A stretch of DNA of 64,000 bases from Methylomarinovum caldicuralii (GTDB lineage: Bacteria; Pseudomonadota; Gammaproteobacteria; Methylococcales; Methylothermaceae), in assembly GCF_033126985.1 (NCBI RefSeq), contig NZ_AP024714.1:1364001-1428000 (forward strand). Direction: 5' to 3'. A program made the translations under genes and the position numbers. The notes under the pieces were generated by a model. The model saw only the letters and a list, made by a program, of their open reading frames with translations. It did not search any database and was not told where the DNA came from. Positions 1-8,860 of the stretch are shown in pieces; the stretch's first letter is position 1, and every line of letters begins with the position of its first letter.

Positions 1-645
1 CTGCTGCAGGAGTATCTGGGCCGGTACGGTTTTCTGGTGGCGTCGGTGGCGTCGGGACGGGCCGGTTTGGAACGCCTTGAGCGGCAGCCGGCCGATCTTG
101 TGATCCTGGACATCCGCCTGCCGGACGAGGACGGCTTCGAAGTGCTGAGGAAGTTGCGGCAGCGTTGGGAAGTGCCGGTCATCATGCTGACGGGGCTGGA
201 GGACAGCGCCGACCGGGTGGTGGGGCTGGAACTGGGGGCCGACGACTATCTGACCAAGCCCTTCGACCCAAGGGAGCTGCTGGCACGGATCCGGGCGGTC
301 CTGCGGCGCTGCCGCCCTGTTCCGGAGATGGCGGCGGAATACCGCTTCGCCGGTTTCCGGCTGCATCCGGAAAGCCGGGAACTGGTCGGCCCGGGTGGCG
401 AGACAGTGCGTCTGTCCCGCAGTGAACAGCGCCTGCTGCTGGCTTTTCTGCAGCATCCGGGACGGACCCTCAGCCGTGACCGGCTGCTGGAGTTGTGCGA
501 ACCCCATGGCGAGGATATTTTCGACCGCGCCATCGACGTGCGGGTGCTGCGCCTGCGTCGCAGGCTCGGGGAGGCCGGTGCCCTGATCGTCACCGAACGC
601 GGCGAAGGCTATCGCTTCGCCGCGGCGGTGGAGCGGTCCGGTTAG
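1..645 (+). CDS. OmpR/PhoB-family response regulator (5' end outside window)
   Basis: The frame is open from base 1, so the gene starts upstream of the window; 214 residues are visible. The receiver domain has the phosphoacceptor Asp in the ILDIRLPDEDG motif (visible residue 37) and the conserved Lys in DDYLTKPFDP. The C-terminal winged helix carries the RALD/IDVRVLRLRRRL recognition region and ends in a GEGYRF wing typical of OmpR/PhoB regulators. The missing N-terminus should hold the paired acidic residues and first beta strand. It is a DNA-binding two-component regulator. Its kinase may lie upstream of the window; the sensor kinase at 3394-4881 is another candidate but is on the opposite strand. 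The stop overlaps by 4 bases the stop of the convergent cytochrome gene. Confidence 0.93.
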   Translation: MLQEYLGRYGFLVASVASGRAGLERLERQPADLVILDIRLPDEDGFEVLRKLRQRWEVPVIMLTGLEDSADRVVGLELGADDYLTKPFDPRELLARIRAVLRRCRPVPEMAAEYRFAGFRLHPESRELVGPGGETVRLSRSEQRLLLAFLQHPGRTLSRDRLLELCEPHGEDIFDRAIDVRVLRLRRRLGEAGALIVTERGEGYRFAAAVERSG

Positions 646-1031
646 TGCTTGCCCGGGGCCAGGGGCACCCCGCGGCGCTCCCAGACGATATAGGCCTCCA
701 GGGCGATCATCTCGTCGCTGTCCAGGGGCAGGGGCTTGCCTTCCAGGGGGTTCTGCAAGCACCAGTTGATCATCTCCCGCAGGGTGGCCACCTTGCCCAG
801 CTGCTTCTGAAACTTGGGATAGGTCTCCGGGTGGGTATTGGCGCCGTTAGGATGGCACTGGTCACAGGAAACCTGGTTGGTTCCCAGAGTCGAGTGGAAC
901 AGCTTTTCGCCCTTCTGCATCACCTTCATGTACTCGGCCTGCCAGCGCTTGAGATCCTCTTCGGTGAATTCGTCGCTGTAGGCGGGTGTCGCCGCCAATC
1001 CCGCCAGCAAAAGCCATATGCCTGGTTTCAT
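642..1031 (-). CDS. small periplasmic mono-heme cytochrome c
   Basis: 129 residues with an N-terminal signal peptide (hydrophobic stretch, cleavage near AYS-D) and one heme c site, CDQCH, at residues 56-60. A lone Cys at residue 91 sits in the segment REMINWCLQNPLEGKPL, which resembles the C-terminal part of SoxA-type cytochromes, where a Cys is a distal heme ligand; that comparison is from memory and tentative. A GAGGAG ribosome site lies 7 bases before the ATG. It starts 10 bases after the metallophosphoesterase stop and is probably the last gene of the operon pqqA, di-heme peroxidase, phosphoesterase, cytochrome, acting as periplasmic electron donor or acceptor for the peroxidase. Confidence 0.85.
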   Translation of the reverse strand: MKPGIWLLLAGLAATPAYSDEFTEEDLKRWQAEYMKVMQKGEKLFHSTLGTNQVSCDQCHPNGANTHPETYPKFQKQLGKVATLREMINWCLQNPLEGKPLPLDSDEMIALEAYIVWERRGVPLAPGKH

Positions 1032-1041
1032 ATCGGTCTCC

Positions 1042-2115
1042 TCAATAATGGAATTGGGGTGGAATGCGCTTGTCCGGGTCCTGATACTTCAGGTCCACCG
1101 GGTGCTTGAGCTTGAAGTCGAAAGCCACGGTACGGTTCTCGTTCAGCCACAGCTGATAGTGGTTGGTGACGGCGCCGCTGTCGAGGTCGAGGATGTCCCA
1201 GCCGGTACCGTCGCGCTGGTGGAAGGGATCGGCGCGGTTCATGAACACCGTCAGCTTCGGCACCCGGTTGGGTTTCTGCACGTAGCTGACCGGATAGGGC
1301 CAGGGCCAGGCGGTGGCCATCACGGCGTAGAAGGTGATGTTGCCGATCTGGTTGTAGAGCACCTGGTGGACGTGGCCGTGAAGCACGGTGACCCGGTGGA
1401 AGCGCTGCAGCTGTTTTTGGACCTTTTCGGCATCGTCGGTCCAGAAGTTCCATGGCTTGAAGATTTTGTACAGAGGCGAGTGGGACAGCACCACCACCGG
1501 TACGTTGGCGTCGTATTTGGCCAGATCCTCGGCCAGCCAGCGCAGCTGCTCGTCGCCCACCATGAAGGGGGAGCCCTTGGGATTGTCGAGGCGGGCCATG
1601 TTGAGCATCCGCTCCATGGGCGTCGGCCACTGGGCGATCCAGTCCTCGTAGGTGAGGATGCTGTTGAGGACCACGAAGTGGACGCCCTTGTGGTCGAAGC
1701 TGTAGTGCAGGGGGCTGATCTTGTCCTGCCAGTATTCCCCCATGTCCAGGTAGAAGTCGTGCTCGCCGATGACCCACTTGAGGGGCGGGCGCAGGGCCGA
1801 CAGCAGCTCCAGGCCGTGGTCCAGCTCCTCACGCTTGCCCAGCTGGGCCAGATCGCCGCCATAGATGACGAAATCCGGCTTCGGATCCATCAGGTTCACT
1901 TCCATGACCGCCTTGCGCAGTCCTTGGTCGAAATTGCGGGTAAATTGCGTACCCTTGATGTGGGTCAGGTGGGAGTCGGAAATGTAGGCGAAGGTGAAGG
2001 GCTCGTGCTCGGGCGGTTTGCTGCCCATGCCCCAGGCCACTTCCACTAGGCTGAAAGGCAAAGTGGCGCTGAGGCCGGCCAGTCCCATGCCCTTGATGAA
2101 GTTTCTGCGTTTCAT
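1042..2115 (-). CDS. Tat-exported calcineurin-like metallophosphoesterase
   Basis: 357 residues. The N-terminus MKRRNFIKGMG followed by a hydrophobic stretch is a twin-arginine signal, so the folded enzyme is probably exported to the periplasm. The metallophosphoesterase motifs are in order: D47-x-H49, GGD at 86-88, GEHD at 117-120 (GNHD in most relatives), H212 in VLSHSP, and GHVH at 247-250. These build a two-metal centre that hydrolyses phosphoesters; the substrate is unknown. The start ATG overlaps the stop of the di-heme peroxidase gene by 4 bases (ATGA), indicating translational coupling. I chose this start because of the Tat motif and the overlap, although the frame is open further upstream. 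Confidence 0.9.
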   Translation of the reverse strand: MKRRNFIKGMGLAGLSATLPFSLVEVAWGMGSKPPEHEPFTFAYISDSHLTHIKGTQFTRNFDQGLRKAVMEVNLMDPKPDFVIYGGDLAQLGKREELDHGLELLSALRPPLKWVIGEHDFYLDMGEYWQDKISPLHYSFDHKGVHFVVLNSILTYEDWIAQWPTPMERMLNMARLDNPKGSPFMVGDEQLRWLAEDLAKYDANVPVVVLSHSPLYKIFKPWNFWTDDAEKVQKQLQRFHRVTVLHGHVHQVLYNQIGNITFYAVMATAWPWPYPVSYVQKPNRVPKLTVFMNRADPFHQRDGTGWDILDLDSGAVTNHYQLWLNENRTVAFDFKLKHPVDLKYQDPDKRIPPQFHY

Positions 2116-3221
2116 GGCGTTCTCCTTGCTAAACGGGAACTGGTGAGGGATTTGAGGAATTCGACCAGGTCGGTCTTCTCCTGCGGCGTCAGCCCCAGGG
2201 GGCGGATGCCGCCGTCGAGCAGGGGATTGTCGAAACCGCTGATGTCGTAGAAGTCGATGACTTCCTCCAGGGTCTTGAGGCTGCCGTCGTGCATATAAGG
2301 GGCGGTCAGGGCGATGTTGCGCAGGGTCGAGGTCTTGAACTTGCCGATGTCCTCGGTCTCGCCGGTGACCGCGAACTGCCCCAGCTCCGACAATTCCGCC
2401 TGGGTCAATACCGCCTCGTCCACCGGCCTGCCTTCGGCCTTGGCCTTGCGGAAGGCGGCGATGATCTCGGGCAGCCGGGCCTGGATGCGTTCGAAGCCGA
2501 CCCCGAGGTTGTGGAAACGGTTGTCGGTGAACAGCGCGGTGGATTCTTCGATCACGTGACAGCTGACGCAGCGCCCCTTGCCACGGAACACCGCCAGGCC
2601 GCGGATCGCCGCCTCCGACAGGGCGTTCTTGTCGCCGCCGTAGAGATAGCGGTCGAAAGGGCTGTCCCCGGCCACCACGGTGCGCTCGAAGCTGGCGATG
2701 GCCTGGACCACGTGGTCGATGGTGATCTGGTCCGGCGTCAGCCCGAAAGCCTGGCGGAACCGGTTCCGGTAGTCGGGATCGCCGCGCACGATTTCGACGA
2801 TGGGATCGTGGCTCTTCAGGCCGTGCTCGATGGGGTTGACGAAGGGATCCTTGGCCTGCGCCTCCAGGCTGGGGCGGCGCCCGTCCCAGAACTGCCGGGT
2901 GTAATAGGCGGCGTTGATGACCGTGGGGGCGTTGCGGGTGCCCTTCTGTCCCCGGATGCCCTCCGACACCGGCAGGCCGTCCTGGAACGCCAGCTCCGGC
3001 TTGTGGCAATGGGCGCAGCTGACGGTGCCGTCGGCGCTGAAACGCTTGTCCTCGAACAGCTTCCGACCCAGCCGCGCCTTGTCCAGGGTCAGGGGGTTGT
3101 CCTTGGGGACCGGCACCGGCGGCAGGCCGAGCAGGGTCTTGGGGTCCGGCAGCCGGACCTCGCCGGCGGGGAGCGCCGGGCTCAGGGCGGCCAGGGTCAC
3201 GATCAGCACATGGGGCTTCAT
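2112..3221 (-). CDS. di-heme cytochrome c peroxidase (CcpA/MauG superfamily)
   Basis: 369 residues with a signal peptide (MKPHVLIVTLAALSPALPAG). Two heme c sites, CAHCH at 69-73 and CVSCH at 218-222, and the family hallmark APYMHDGSLKTLEE near residue 308. The Met at about 310 is in the position of the distal ligand of the high-potential heme in bacterial cytochrome c peroxidases; MauG itself has Tyr there, so hydrogen peroxide reduction is likelier than MauG-type protein oxidation. It lies 11 bases downstream of pqqA and is coupled to the metallophosphoesterase by an ATGA overlap. Alternative upstream starts would remove the signal peptide from the N-terminus. Confidence 0.9.
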   Translation of the reverse strand: MKPHVLIVTLAALSPALPAGEVRLPDPKTLLGLPPVPVPKDNPLTLDKARLGRKLFEDKRFSADGTVSCAHCHKPELAFQDGLPVSEGIRGQKGTRNAPTVINAAYYTRQFWDGRRPSLEAQAKDPFVNPIEHGLKSHDPIVEIVRGDPDYRNRFRQAFGLTPDQITIDHVVQAIASFERTVVAGDSPFDRYLYGGDKNALSEAAIRGLAVFRGKGRCVSCHVIEESTALFTDNRFHNLGVGFERIQARLPEIIAAFRKAKAEGRPVDEAVLTQAELSELGQFAVTGETEDIGKFKTSTLRNIALTAPYMHDGSLKTLEEVIDFYDISGFDNPLLDGGIRPLGLTPQEKTDLVEFLKSLTSSRLARRTP

Positions 3222-3232
3222 GGCGGCCGTCC

Positions 3233-3307
3233 TCAGCGGTGGTGGATATAAAGGGTGACCTCGAAGCCGAGGCGAAGATCGCGGTAGGTGGGTTTTTGCC
3301 AAGTCAT
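3233..3307 (-). CDS. pqqA: PqqA-type coenzyme PQQ precursor peptide
   Basis: A 24-codon reading frame on the minus strand. The N-terminal half has the W-x-K-P (residues 3-6) and D-L-R (10-12) features of PqqA, and the C-terminal half reads GFEVTLYIHHR. Glu16 and Tyr20 are in the positions that PqqE crosslinks and from which pyrroloquinoline quinone is made. An AGGAG ribosome site lies 7 bases before the ATG. No pqqB-E genes are in the window, so the peptide must be processed by enzymes encoded elsewhere if it is functional. It is followed after 11 bases by the di-heme peroxidase gene and is probably its co-transcribed first gene. The match of length, spacing and motif makes chance unlikely. 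Confidence 0.88.
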   Translation of the reverse strand: MTWQKPTYRDLRLGFEVTLYIHHR

Positions 3308-3316
3308 GGCGCTACT

Positions 3317-3340
3317 CCTGTGTTTCAGATTGGACACAGG
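3317..3340 (-). promoter_or_regulatory. inverted repeat overlapping the pqqA ribosome-binding site
   Basis: Two perfect 7-base arms (CCTGTGT and ACACAGG in minus-strand orientation) are separated by 10 bases. The downstream arm shares its AGG with the AGGAG ribosome site of pqqA, so the RNA hairpin would hide the site; as DNA it could equally be an operator. A TAGAAT hexamer lies just upstream at about 3348-3353 on the minus strand, but I see no convincing -35 element. Confidence 0.45.
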
Positions 3341-3393
3341 TGCCATTCTAAACCCGCGCGGTTACCGGGGGATTTCAAAAAATCCCGGGTTGG

Positions 3394-4877
<1,484 letters not shown>

Positions 4878-4881
<4 letters not shown>

Positions 4882-5783
4882 GGCGGTTTCGGACGCAGGT
4901 AGCGGCCGGTCAGGCTCTTCAGGAAGGCGACGATGGCCTTCACGTCCCGGGGCGGCGGGCGGGTGCCGAGCTGCAGTTCGGCCATCAGGGTGACGGCCTT
5001 TTCCAGGGTCTGTACCCCTCCGTCGTGGAAGTAGGGGGCGGTGAGCGCCACGTTGCGCAGGCTCGGAACCCGGAACACGTCGCGGTACTCCTCCCGGCCG
5101 GTGACGGCGATGCGGCCCGGATCGGCGCTCGGATAGCGCCCGAAGATACCCAGCTTCTGCAGCAGGTTGCCGCCGACGTTGACCCCCTGGTGACAGGCGC
5201 TGCAGCCGTAACGCTTGAACAGGCGGTAACCTCGTTTCTGCGCCGGCGTCAGGGCGGATTCGTCGCCGCGCAGAAAGCGGTCGAAGGGCGCATCCGGGGT
5301 TACCAGGGTGCGCTCAAAGGCCACCAGGGCGTCGATCACCGCCTCCGCGTCGATGTCGCCGTAAAGGGCCGCAAAATCGCGGCGGTAACCGTCGTCGGCC
5401 TTGAGGCGCGCCAGGGACCGGTTCCAGTCCACCCGCATGTCGCGCTGCAGCGCCGTCTCCGCCTGCTGCTTCAGGGTGGCGAGGTCGCCGTACCAGTGCA
5501 GCCGGTAGTTGAAGACGGCGTTGAACACCGTCAGCGTATTGTGGGGATAGGGACCGCTGCGGATGGCCGGCAGGGGGCTGTCGTCGTCGCCGCCGGCCTC
5601 GAGACGGTGACAGTCGGCGCAGCGGATGCGGCCGCTGCCGCTCAGGCGGGGATCGTGGAACAGACGCTCGCCGAGGCGGGCGGAGGGTGTTGGTGCGGGC
5701 GCGGGCGGTAAGGGCAGGATCGGCTCGGTCGCCGAGAGGGATCCCGGCAGCAGGACGATGACGGTGAGAAGCTGTCGGTACAC
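4878..5783 (-). CDS. second di-heme cytochrome c peroxidase-like protein
   Basis: About 301 residues from a GTG start chosen because it gives a signal peptide (YRQLLTVIVLLPGSLSA) at the N-terminus; the frame remains open upstream through the remains of another gene. A proline-rich linker precedes the heme sites CADCH (55-59) and CSACH (194-198). The family motif reads APYFHDGGVQTLE, with Phe252 where cytochrome c peroxidases have Met and MauG has Tyr, so the C-terminal heme may lack that distal ligand. This suggests a MauG-like or non-peroxidase role. The stop overlaps the start of the sensor kinase gene (ATGA). The ribosome site before the GTG is weak (AAGG, 0-2 bases away), so the start is less certain than the product class. 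Confidence 0.8.
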
Positions 5784-5785
5784 CT

Positions 5786-5960
5786 TCAGGCTAGGGCGAT
5801 CCTCAGCAGCATCAGCCCCGCCAGCCCCAGCAGAAAGGCGCCGAACAGCGGCTGGATGCGGTGTTTGTCGATGCGTGTGGTCAGGTGAGCGCCGAGGCGG
5901 GCGCCCAGGAATGCGGCGCCGGCGCAACAGCAGCATCAGCAGCAGATTCAACGGCGTCAC
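5786..5960 (-). pseudogene. TauE/SafE-type sulfite exporter remnant
   Basis: A GTG-started frame gives an N-terminal hydrophobic piece, VTPLNLLLMLLL, that looks like the first helix of a DUF81/TauE permease. One base out of that frame, and ending at the TGA at 5786-5788, about 45 residues read GARLGAHLTTRIDKHR, then IQPLFGAFLLGLAGLMLLRIALA, the last two helices of the same family. Intact members are about 250 residues, so roughly 600 bases of the middle are missing and the reading frame is broken at the join (near 5925). The remnant ends 2 bases before the GTG of the peroxidase gene and may supply its leader RNA. Confidence 0.6.
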
Positions 5961-7089: not shown

Positions 7090-7715
7090 CGCTGATCAGT
7101 CTGCTGGTGGTGGTCAATCCCATCGACAGCACGATCTACTTTCTGACCCTGACCGCCGATCGTCCTGCGGAGGAACGCCGGGCCATCGTCCACAAGGCGG
7201 TGACCGCCGCCACCGTCTTCCTGCTGGCGGCGATCTGGTTCGGTGAACTGCTGCTGAGCCTGCTGGGTATCAGTATCGGCGCCTTCGCCGTCGGCGGCGG
7301 CCTGATGATGCTGGTGATGGCGATGGCGATGGCGATGCTGCAGGCCAGACCCAGCGCCCTGGAGCGCACCCCGGCGGAAACCGAAGAAGCGGCCGGACGG
7401 GAAAGCATCGCCATCGTACCGCTGGCGATGCCGTTGATGGTGGGGCCCGGCGTGCTGAGCATGGCGGTCCTGCTGGCGGACCAGGCCGGTGGCATCGGCG
7501 GCAGGATCGGCCTGACCCTGGTGGCCGGTGTGGTCATGGGGATACTGTGGTGGTTGTTGCGCAAGGCCGAGCCGGTCGTCGACTGGCTGGGAGAGACGGG
7601 CGCCAACGTCCTGATCCGAATCGCCGGAATGATTTTGGCGGCGATCTCGGTGCAGATCATCGCCGACGGCCTGGTTCAGCTGTTCCCGGGGCTGGCGGGC
7701 CTGAAAATGGGCTGA
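7071..7715 (+). CDS. MarC-family integral membrane protein
   Basis: 214 residues with about six hydrophobic segments. NPIDSTIYFLTLT near the N-terminus, a central PLAMPLMVGPG and a C-terminal IRIAGMILAAISVQIIADGL are the recurring MarC (UPF0056) landmarks; the family is found in the inner membrane and its transport role is unresolved. The reading frame begins at the second of two duplicated ATGs, 27 bases from the only good ribosome site, so initiation may be poor or depend on re-initiation. The end overlaps the convergent MFS gene by 40 bases. Confidence 0.82.
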   Translation: MLFLFKALISLLVVVNPIDSTIYFLTLTADRPAEERRAIVHKAVTAATVFLLAAIWFGELLLSLLGISIGAFAVGGGLMMLVMAMAMAMLQARPSALERTPAETEEAAGRESIAIVPLAMPLMVGPGVLSMAVLLADQAGGIGGRIGLTLVAGVVMGILWWLLRKAEPVVDWLGETGANVLIRIAGMILAAISVQIIADGLVQLFPGLAGLKMG

Positions 7716-8860
7716 CGCCGGGTCAGCCAGGCCAGGATGGCGGCGGCCAGCGCGGTGACCGCCGCCGAGCACAGGAAGGCGACGGTCGATCCCCACCACT
7801 GCCACAGGGTACCGAACAGCAGCCCGCCGGGCAGGGCAGCCAGTCCCACCACCATGTGGAACAGGCCGTAAGCGGTGGCCCGGCGGGCGGGCGGGGCGTG
7901 ATCGCCGATCAGGGCCCGTTCCGGGCCCTCGGTCAAGGCCAGAGCGCCGGCATAGCCCAGGAACAGGGTCCAGGTCAGCCAGACGCCGTCACGGGCCAGG
8001 GCGAGGGCCACCAGCATCGCCACCCGCACGCCCCAGCCTCCCAGCAGCACGGCCCGGCGGCCGAGTCGGTCCGACGCCTCTCCGCCCAGCAGCGCCAGCG
8101 GGGTCTTGATGGCGCTGGCCGCCGCCCACAGCAGCGGCACCCAGGCGATCTCCAGGCCCCGTCCGGTGGCCCACAGCACCACGAACACTTCCGGCGCCGC
8201 CGCCAGGGCGAGGGCGCCCCCGGCCAGGATCAGCCCTTGAAGATGCGGGTCAAGGGCGCGCCAGCGCAAAGGCGGCGGTTTGGGCGCCACCGCCGGACGG
8301 GCCGGTTCCTTCAGGCCGAAGGCCAGCAGCGCCAGCACCAGCGCTCCCGGCAGCGCCGACCACAGGAACACCTGGGTCATCGGTACGTCCTGCCGCAACA
8401 GGGCGAAGGCCAGCAGCGGGCCGGCCACCGCACCGGCGTTGTCCAGAGCACGGTGGAAGCCGAAGGCCCGGCCGCGCAGCGGCTCGGGGGTGGCGGCGGC
8501 GATGAGGGCGTCGCGGGGGGCGGTGCGCAGTCCCTTGCCGATGCGGTCGAGAAAGCGCAGCCCCAGCACCCACGGCCAGGCGGTCGCCAGGCCGATGAGG
8601 GGGCGGCACAGATTGGAGAGGGCATAACCGCCCAGCACCAGGCGTTTGTGCCGCCAGCCGCGGTCCGCCAGGCGGCCGGAGACGATCTTGAGGAAGCTGG
8701 CGCTGGCCTCGGCCACCCCTTCCACCAGCCCGACCACCGCCGCCCCGCTTCCCAGCACCGCGGTCAGAAACACCGGCAGCAGCGGCGTGATCATTTCGCT
8801 GGCGGCATCGTTGAGGAACGACACCAGCCCGAGAACGATAACGGTGCGCGGCAGCCTCAT
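7676..8860 (-). CDS. MFS-family transporter
   Basis: 394 residues with about 12 membrane segments. The loop motif RLADRGWRHKR after helix 2 and DRIGKGLRTAPRDALIA after helix 4 are characteristic of a multidrug-exporter-like MFS subgroup in which the second motif is highly conserved. The substrate is unknown. The ATG overlaps the stop of the upstream glycosyltransferase gene by 4 bases, so the two form a coupled pair; export of a glycosylated compound or sugar is possible but not shown. The 3' end overlaps marC by 40 bases tail to tail. Confidence 0.85.
   Translation of the reverse strand: MRLPRTVIVLGLVSFLNDAASEMITPLLPVFLTAVLGSGAAVVGLVEGVAEASASFLKIVSGRLADRGWRHKRLVLGGYALSNLCRPLIGLATAWPWVLGLRFLDRIGKGLRTAPRDALIAAATPEPLRGRAFGFHRALDNAGAVAGPLLAFALLRQDVPMTQVFLWSALPGALVLALLAFGLKEPARPAVAPKPPPLRWRALDPHLQGLILAGGALALAAAPEVFVVLWATGRGLEIAWVPLLWAAASAIKTPLALLGGEASDRLGRRAVLLGGWGVRVAMLVALALARDGVWLTWTLFLGYAGALALTEGPERALIGDHAPPARRATAYGLFHMVVGLAALPGGLLFGTLWQWWGSTVAFLCSAAVTALAAAILAWLTRRQPIFRPASPGNS

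Follow-up and report, generated by a model that had tools for sequence, protein, structure and literature searches.

We found that the stretch of Methylomarinovum caldicuralii DNA analysed here (the window; 64,000 nucleotides) encodes a genuine PqqA, and that this gene is a conserved second copy, which we call pqqA2. It heads a putative minus-strand operon with genes for a MauG-type di-heme enzyme, a metallophosphoesterase (MPE) and a small cytochrome c, next to a two-component system. We think it probable that pqqA2 is an inducible satellite PQQ precursor gene whose peptide feeds the ordinary PqqBCDE proteins and is not a substrate of the MauG-type enzyme, although its regulation and the processing of its product are parts of this reading that we infer.

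Results

The pqqA2 gene and the distant pqqABCDE operon

Read on the minus strand, positions 3307-3233 translate to MTWQKPTYRDLRLGFEVTLYIHHR followed by a stop codon, and translation of the plus strand at 3233-3307 does not yield a PqqA peptide. The product scored above the curated cut-offs of both TIGR02107 (38.4 bits, cut-off 20) and PF08042 (37.2 bits, cut-off 21.1). The initial annotation had credited this peptide with the PqqA length of 24 residues, a retained Glu16 and Tyr20, and a good ribosome site, and all of these features were borne out by the PqqA models and by direct reading of the DNA (Table 1). The two precursor residues of the E-X3-Y arrangement are kept in all five intact pqqA2 copies that we found, and purine-rich stretches also precede the four copies outside the window's genome (G002, G003, G006 and G007). 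Because these four other genomes of the genus carry a copy in the same place, with differences that are mostly synonymous, pqqA2 is not a chance open reading frame.

The four-gene order headed by pqqA that had been annotated is also seen on the minus strand, as pqqA2-mauG-MPE-cytochrome c, with 11 bases between pqqA2 and mauG, an overlap of 4 bases between the mauG and MPE genes, and 10 bases before the cytochrome gene. For mauG we chose the ATG that lies 11 bases past the pqqA2 stop codon; the mechanical open reading frame opens at a TTG farther upstream. The canonical order, in which pqqA lies directly before pqqB, is not found at pqqA2, where mauG is the next gene.

Table 1 Features of the pqqA2 locus (positions within the window)
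Feature	Position	Strand	Basis or remark
pqqA2, 24-residue PqqA precursor peptide MTWQKPTYRDLRLGFEVTLYIHHR	3233..3307	minus	TIGR02107 and PF08042 matches, translation
AGGAG, likely ribosome-binding site of pqqA2	3315..3319	minus	seven bases 5' of the ATG
mauG-type di-heme enzyme, two CXXCH, Tyr325	2112..3221	minus	domain matches; ATG start assumed
Metallophosphoesterase, twin-arginine-type N-terminus, predicted GpdQ/Rv0805-like fold	1042..2115	minus	Tat signal judged by eye
Small mono-heme cytochrome c, SoxA/TsdA type	642..1031	minus	signal-peptide-like N-terminus judged by eye
Sensor histidine kinase, DAHL + HisKA + HATPase_c	3394..4881	minus	directly upstream of pqqA2
Second di-heme protein, CCP type	4878..5783	minus	overlaps start of the DAHL kinase gene; GTG start assumed
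OmpR-type response regulator	1..645	plus	converges on cytochrome gene; start about 47 bases before window
Palindrome GTTACAACGGTAAC (minus-strand reading), candidate operator	3393..3406		overlaps kinase stop codon
Second GGTAAC half-site	3361..3366	minus	32 bases from palindrome towards pqqA2
Window part of 5.86 kb unit, regulator to second di-heme protein	1..5794		absent as a block in G009

The genome is a single contig of 2,694,844 bases. A genome-wide search for pqqABCDE, suggested alongside the initial annotation, recovered one complete operon with its own PqqA at about 2,566,888-2,570,037, about 1.2 Mb from pqqA2, and all of its products scored over cut-off (PqqA, 46.3 bits; PqqB, 409.7; PqqC, 353.3; PqqD, 94.2 with TIGR03859; PqqE, 560.8). 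The only PqqE match over cut-off in the genome is the one in this operon, and the earlier statement that no pqqB-E genes lie near pqqA holds for the operon that pqqA2 heads. Because a complete pqqABCDE that includes another PqqA is present elsewhere in the genome, the pqqA of the window is a second copy, and the possibility that the genome has no PQQ synthesis genes is ruled out. Within the unit that runs from the regulator to the CCP-type gene we found no PQQ enzyme, which counts against a satellite precursor, and no radical-SAM maturase was present among its genes. We also asked if retention of pqqA2 tracks the number of PQQ alcohol dehydrogenases and rejected this, as genomes with and without pqqA2 have one or two over the family cut-off, a further point against the satellite reading.

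Purifying selection maintains PqqA2 as a separate subtype

We read all 66 PqqA matches in 61 genomes. The five mauG-linked copies all read RLGFEVTLYI[HY]H, whereas the 61 other copies, orphans included, all read RFGFEVTMY..N, so that PqqA2 differs from every other copy by the fixed changes F13L, M19L and N23H. Substitutions pooled over the five pqqA2 copies gave a pN of 0.109 against a pS of 0.667 for the whole peptide, and of 0.032 against 0.741 for residues 10-24; the corresponding values across the genus, from nine copies of the operon pqqA, were 0.007 and 0.509. The gene is therefore constrained, yet less so than the operon copy pqqA1, which counts against the satellite reading. In a sample of the class that includes just three other genomes of the order, none of the 368 other genomes yielded a PqqA2 match with an E value of 1e-7 or lower, and a DNA pattern for the core RLG[FL]EVTLY, written with some Leu and Arg codons omitted, occurred in 1 of 369 genomes, the window's own. 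The fixed changes might mean that PqqA2 works with a partner that is not the standard PqqE/PqqD, which would count against the satellite reading. Klebsiella PqqA likewise has Leu at both positions (13 and 19); a literature search for a paper that prints the K. pneumoniae PqqA motif found none.

Distribution, loss and rearrangement of the locus

Relatives were examined by a search of the 61 genomes, and the sequence in front of mauG was read directly. The mauG-MPE-cytochrome trio was present in nine of the ten genomes of the genus (not in G009; the G004 contig holds only the end of mauG), and the stretch before mauG was readable in eight, five of which have an intact pqqA2 (G000, the window's own, and G002, G003, G006 and G007). 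The gene is absent before mauG in G001 and G005, both of which have the trio. G008 has a pqqA2 remnant that lacks a start codon in its frame and in which T and I replace E16 and Y20, and it retains the trio, kinase, regulator and palindrome despite this decay. Such relatives, which keep the trio and lose the peptide or its two key residues, are what the initial annotation had said would refute its view of the locus, and they speak against an obligate partnership of peptide and trio. In a tree of the trio, G005 forms the deepest branch of the genus, followed by G002 with G006, then G008, and then a group of G000, G003 with G007, and G001 with G004; support within the genus ranged from 46 to 100 (87 for this last group and 64 for the G001/G004 pair). 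The simplest reading of this pattern is one gain of pqqA2 and at least two later losses; two or more events of loss or decay in which the trio stayed in place count against the satellite reading.

The sister species G009 lacks the regulator, cytochrome, MPE, mauG, pqqA2, kinase and CCP-type genes as one block, which measures 5,857 bases in G000. Sequence to the right of window position 5795 was matched in G009 at 93% identity, the flank to the left of the regulator is a SagB-type dehydrogenase gene (protein 89.8% identical), and 26 bases separate the two flank matches (L219 9475-9502). A 1-phosphofructokinase-like gene adjoins the CCP-type gene in G000, G003, G007 and G008, flanks the regulator end instead in G002 and G006, and in G005 stands roughly 9 kb away from the trio; the locus has also undergone rearrangement. 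Because the unit occupies the same neighbourhood in other genomes, loss of the block in G009 is likelier than its insertion in G000.

Just past the regulator, locus L004 encodes two near-identical 444-residue proteins (positions 4340-5674 and 7334-8668) that resemble reverse transcriptases of group II introns and flank an IS66-like transposase (names judged from sequence). A SagB-family peptide dehydrogenase (L004 9258-9878; 139.2 bits, cut-off 78.4) is divergent from the regulator.

A two-component system and a candidate operator accompany pqqA2

The kinase and CCP-type genes are present in all five pqqA2 genomes and in G008, and no kinase match was found in the roughly 5 kb read 5' of mauG in G001 and G005. 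GTTACAACGGTAAC is the only exact GTTACN4GTAAC in the window's genome, and the palindrome (N4-5) occurs at this spot in six genomes (G000, G002, G003, G006, G007 and G008). One extra palindrome is present elsewhere in each of G002 and G008, G004 and G009 have one that is elsewhere only, and G001 and G005 have zero matches to GTTACN4-5GTAAC; a reversed control pattern gave 0-12 matches per genome. In the alignment, the second half-site is kept as GGTAAC in G000, G006, G007 and G008 and reads AGTAAC in G002 and GGTAAT in G003. The regulator is present in five of the six palindrome genomes (the G003 contig ends first) and also in G004. Our promoter and terminator scan found no consensus sigma-70 promoter on the minus strand, which counts against the satellite reading, and terminators were at background levels. 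Among the literature excerpts available to us, a search on the DAHL domain returned no occurrence. The neighbouring two-component system, on which the initial annotation was silent, would best account for the arrangement of pqqA2, and the CCP-type di-heme protein might serve the kinase as a redox co-sensor.

The MauG-type trio is widespread and normally lacks pqqA

Contigs of named genomes were scanned with an MPE alignment, which gave 306 relatives, and the analysis covered the best 80. Among these 80, mauG (whole or in part) precedes the MPE gene in 79 and the cytochrome gene follows it in 79, the two misses being contig ends; 11 loci are truncated within mauG or immediately in front of it, leaving 69 that could be scored. 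PqqA was encoded within 600 bases before mauG at three of these 69 loci (L100, L101 and L104, all titled Methylothermaceae) and the trio occurs without it at the other 66. Record titles among these best 80 include Deltaproteobacteria, Thermodesulfobacteria and Methylococcaceae, as well as the sulfur oxidisers Thiohalobacter, Thiocapsa and Acidithiobacillus, so that the trio is seen in gammaproteobacterial as well as deltaproteobacterial and thermodesulfobacterial records. Likewise, the 700 bases in front of mauG encode no PqqA in G016, G019, G030 and G041, four genomes that have the trio and belong to the order but not to the genus. The trio is thus widespread and normally occurs without pqqA, which rules out pqqA as a fixed part of it and, together with the peptide-free trios of G001 and G005 and the decayed copy of G008, leaves unsupported a tie in which the MauG-type enzyme needs the peptide or processes it.

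The mauG product is a CCP_MauG-domain protein with two CXXCH motifs that falls below the cut-offs of the MauG family (TIGR03791; 221.2 against 443.85 bits) and the MbnH family (TIGR04039; 271.7 against 362.85 bits), and the cytochrome, with one CXXCH, falls below that of SoxA (TIGR04484; 60.1 against 110 bits). Tyr325 is present in all 84 cassette MauG rows (79 distinct sequences, with five genomes present twice), and the second, CCP-type di-heme protein of the window has Met in this alignment column, which we take to be the axial ligand position. As far as sequence can indicate, Tyr325 matches what MauG/MbnH-like chemistry predicts, as expected. The accessible text of PMC6405878 describes Tyr-His ligation in MauG and the oxidation of protein side chains by MauG-type enzymes. 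The predicted MPE model is moderate (pLDDT averages 69.7 and drops below 50 in residues 1-36 and 267-304), and we used from it the fold class alone, which appears GpdQ/Rv0805-like. Eight Trp residues are invariant across 51 phosphoesterases (W129, W159, W193, W222, W225, W270, W272 and W306), and the trio is possibly a MauG-type modification system. Neither Foldseek nor the literature yielded a function for the trio; the titles and abstract starts searched contained no description of it, and among the papers searched only the Methylacidiphilum infernorum genome paper had both pqqA and MauG, with one mention each.

Other extra pqqA genes

By a count from our table, 24 of 201 genomes of the order have at least two PqqA matches. 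We examined eight PqqA copies outside the genus, in five genomes, that have no pqqB behind them. Two of these (G030 and G060; L191 and L194) adjoin genes for TIGR03866 PQQ-associated, catabolism-linked beta-propeller proteins, and one in G030 lies some 1.5 kb away from a gene that resembles those for PQQ alcohol dehydrogenases (456.8 bits against a cut-off of 480). The recurrence of extra copies and these three placements favour the satellite reading. For five of the eight, two of whose neighbourhoods were scanned, no PQQ-linked neighbour was recognised, which counts against the satellite reading.

Discussion

Because pqqBCDE is present elsewhere in the genome and E16 and Y20 are kept under purifying selection, a supplementary PQQ supply, as the initial annotation had proposed, remains the best reading of pqqA2, although a need of the MauG-type enzyme for the peptide, or processing by it, is unsupported. 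Upon activation of the DAHL sensor kinase and the OmpR-type regulator, the regulator would bind the palindrome before pqqA2, and a four-gene message, pqqA2-mauG-MPE-cytochrome c, would then be made. PqqA2 would stay in the cytoplasm, where it could be cross-linked and processed by the PqqD, PqqE, PqqB and PqqC of the distant operon. The PQQ supply would rise while the exported heme and phosphoesterase proteins are produced, and the extra PQQ may bring some benefit. MauG, MPE and the cytochrome, all three presumably exported, would act in the periplasm and not on the peptide. Since no export signal was seen on PqqA2 and the trio normally occurs without the peptide, PqqA2 is unlikely to meet MauG.

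Several other explanations were weighed. That pqqA2 is mainly a leader mini-gene, whose translation delivers ribosomes to mauG with any PQQ role incidental, would fit the start of mauG 8-13 bases past the pqqA2 stop in all five copies and the purine-rich stretch that abuts or overlaps this stop, but selection acts on the amino acids, most strongly in the PqqA core, a leader would not need E16 and Y20, and mauG of G001 and G005 does without such a leader; we therefore regard it as unlikely. A specialised precursor, whose changes direct it to another maturase or another end product, either a modified peptide or a compound resembling PQQ, that serves MauG, MPE and the cytochrome, could explain the Leu/Leu/His signature, the occurrence of the core pattern in 1 of the 369 class genomes sampled and the proximity of an enzyme type known to oxidise side chains. 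Against this stand the retention of E16, Y20 and the remaining PqqA core, the Leu residues shared with Klebsiella, the lack of a radical-SAM maturase in the unit, the 66 of 69 scorable loci (best 80 of 306 relatives) at which the peptide is missing, and the lack of an export signal on a peptide whose heme-protein neighbours look exported, so that we consider this explanation improbable as well. We give still less credence to a dedicated precursor under sensor-kinase control, whose product (PQQ or PQQ-like) would be used by, or signal to, the MauG/MPE/cytochrome module; if true, it would constitute a second, signal-driven PQQ route within one cell. A chance duplication into a regulated operon, kept or lost without consequence, accords with the absence of pqqA2 from G001, its decay in G008 and the missing block in G009, but is equally doubtful: in the five copies, which have diverged strongly at synonymous sites, pN is much lower than pS, and an unselected 24-codon gene would be expected to decay, as in G008.

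Many methylotrophs keep extra pqqA genes. The satellite gene that we favour offers a candidate regulator and operator, a peptide subtype and natural knock-outs (G009, without the unit, and G008, with a decayed gene), and because these are at hand, the proposal that a satellite pqqA tunes PQQ supply is directly testable. pqqA2 thus allows the role of satellite pqqA genes to be tested cleanly, and it also draws attention to the widespread MauG-metallophosphoesterase-cytochrome trio.

Compared with the PqqA of a canonical pqqABCDE operon, PqqA2 shares the length of 24 residues, E16, Y20 and the LR-G-EVT-Y core, but has Leu13 for Phe, Leu19 for Met and His23 for Asn, and no pqqB-E behind it. Its enzymatic neighbour resembles MauG and MbnH in the CCP_MauG domain, the two CXXCH motifs and the Tyr at the position of the CCP Met, but scores below both family cut-offs and has an MPE and a SoxA-type cytochrome as partners. 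In the available text of PMC5739008, sulfur and C1 bacteria have a comparable mtoX-SCO1-mauG methanethiol oxidase cluster, an operon that pairs a MauG-like gene with one for an exported enzyme, whereas the partner in the window is a metallophosphoesterase and mtoX and SCO1 were unmatched among the unit proteins scanned.

Extra pqqA genes described in the accessible portions of earlier reports provide the closest parallels. Methylosinus trichosporium OB3b has a strongly expressed pqqA away from pqqBCDE (PMC3615186), Beijerinckiaceae bacterium RH AL1 has three pqqA copies (PMC10848612), and in Hyphomicrobium denitrificans a SoxR/sHdrR-controlled cluster contains second copies of pqqA, pqqD and pqqE (PMC12423496); extra copies are differentially regulated (PMC12423496, PMC10848612), in favour of the satellite reading. 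As far as these excerpts describe them, such methylotroph genes, like pqqA2, are extra copies or lie apart from pqqBCDE, sometimes with regulation of their own, but pqqA2 differs in heading a MauG-phosphoesterase-cytochrome operon beside a two-component system and in forming its own sequence subtype.
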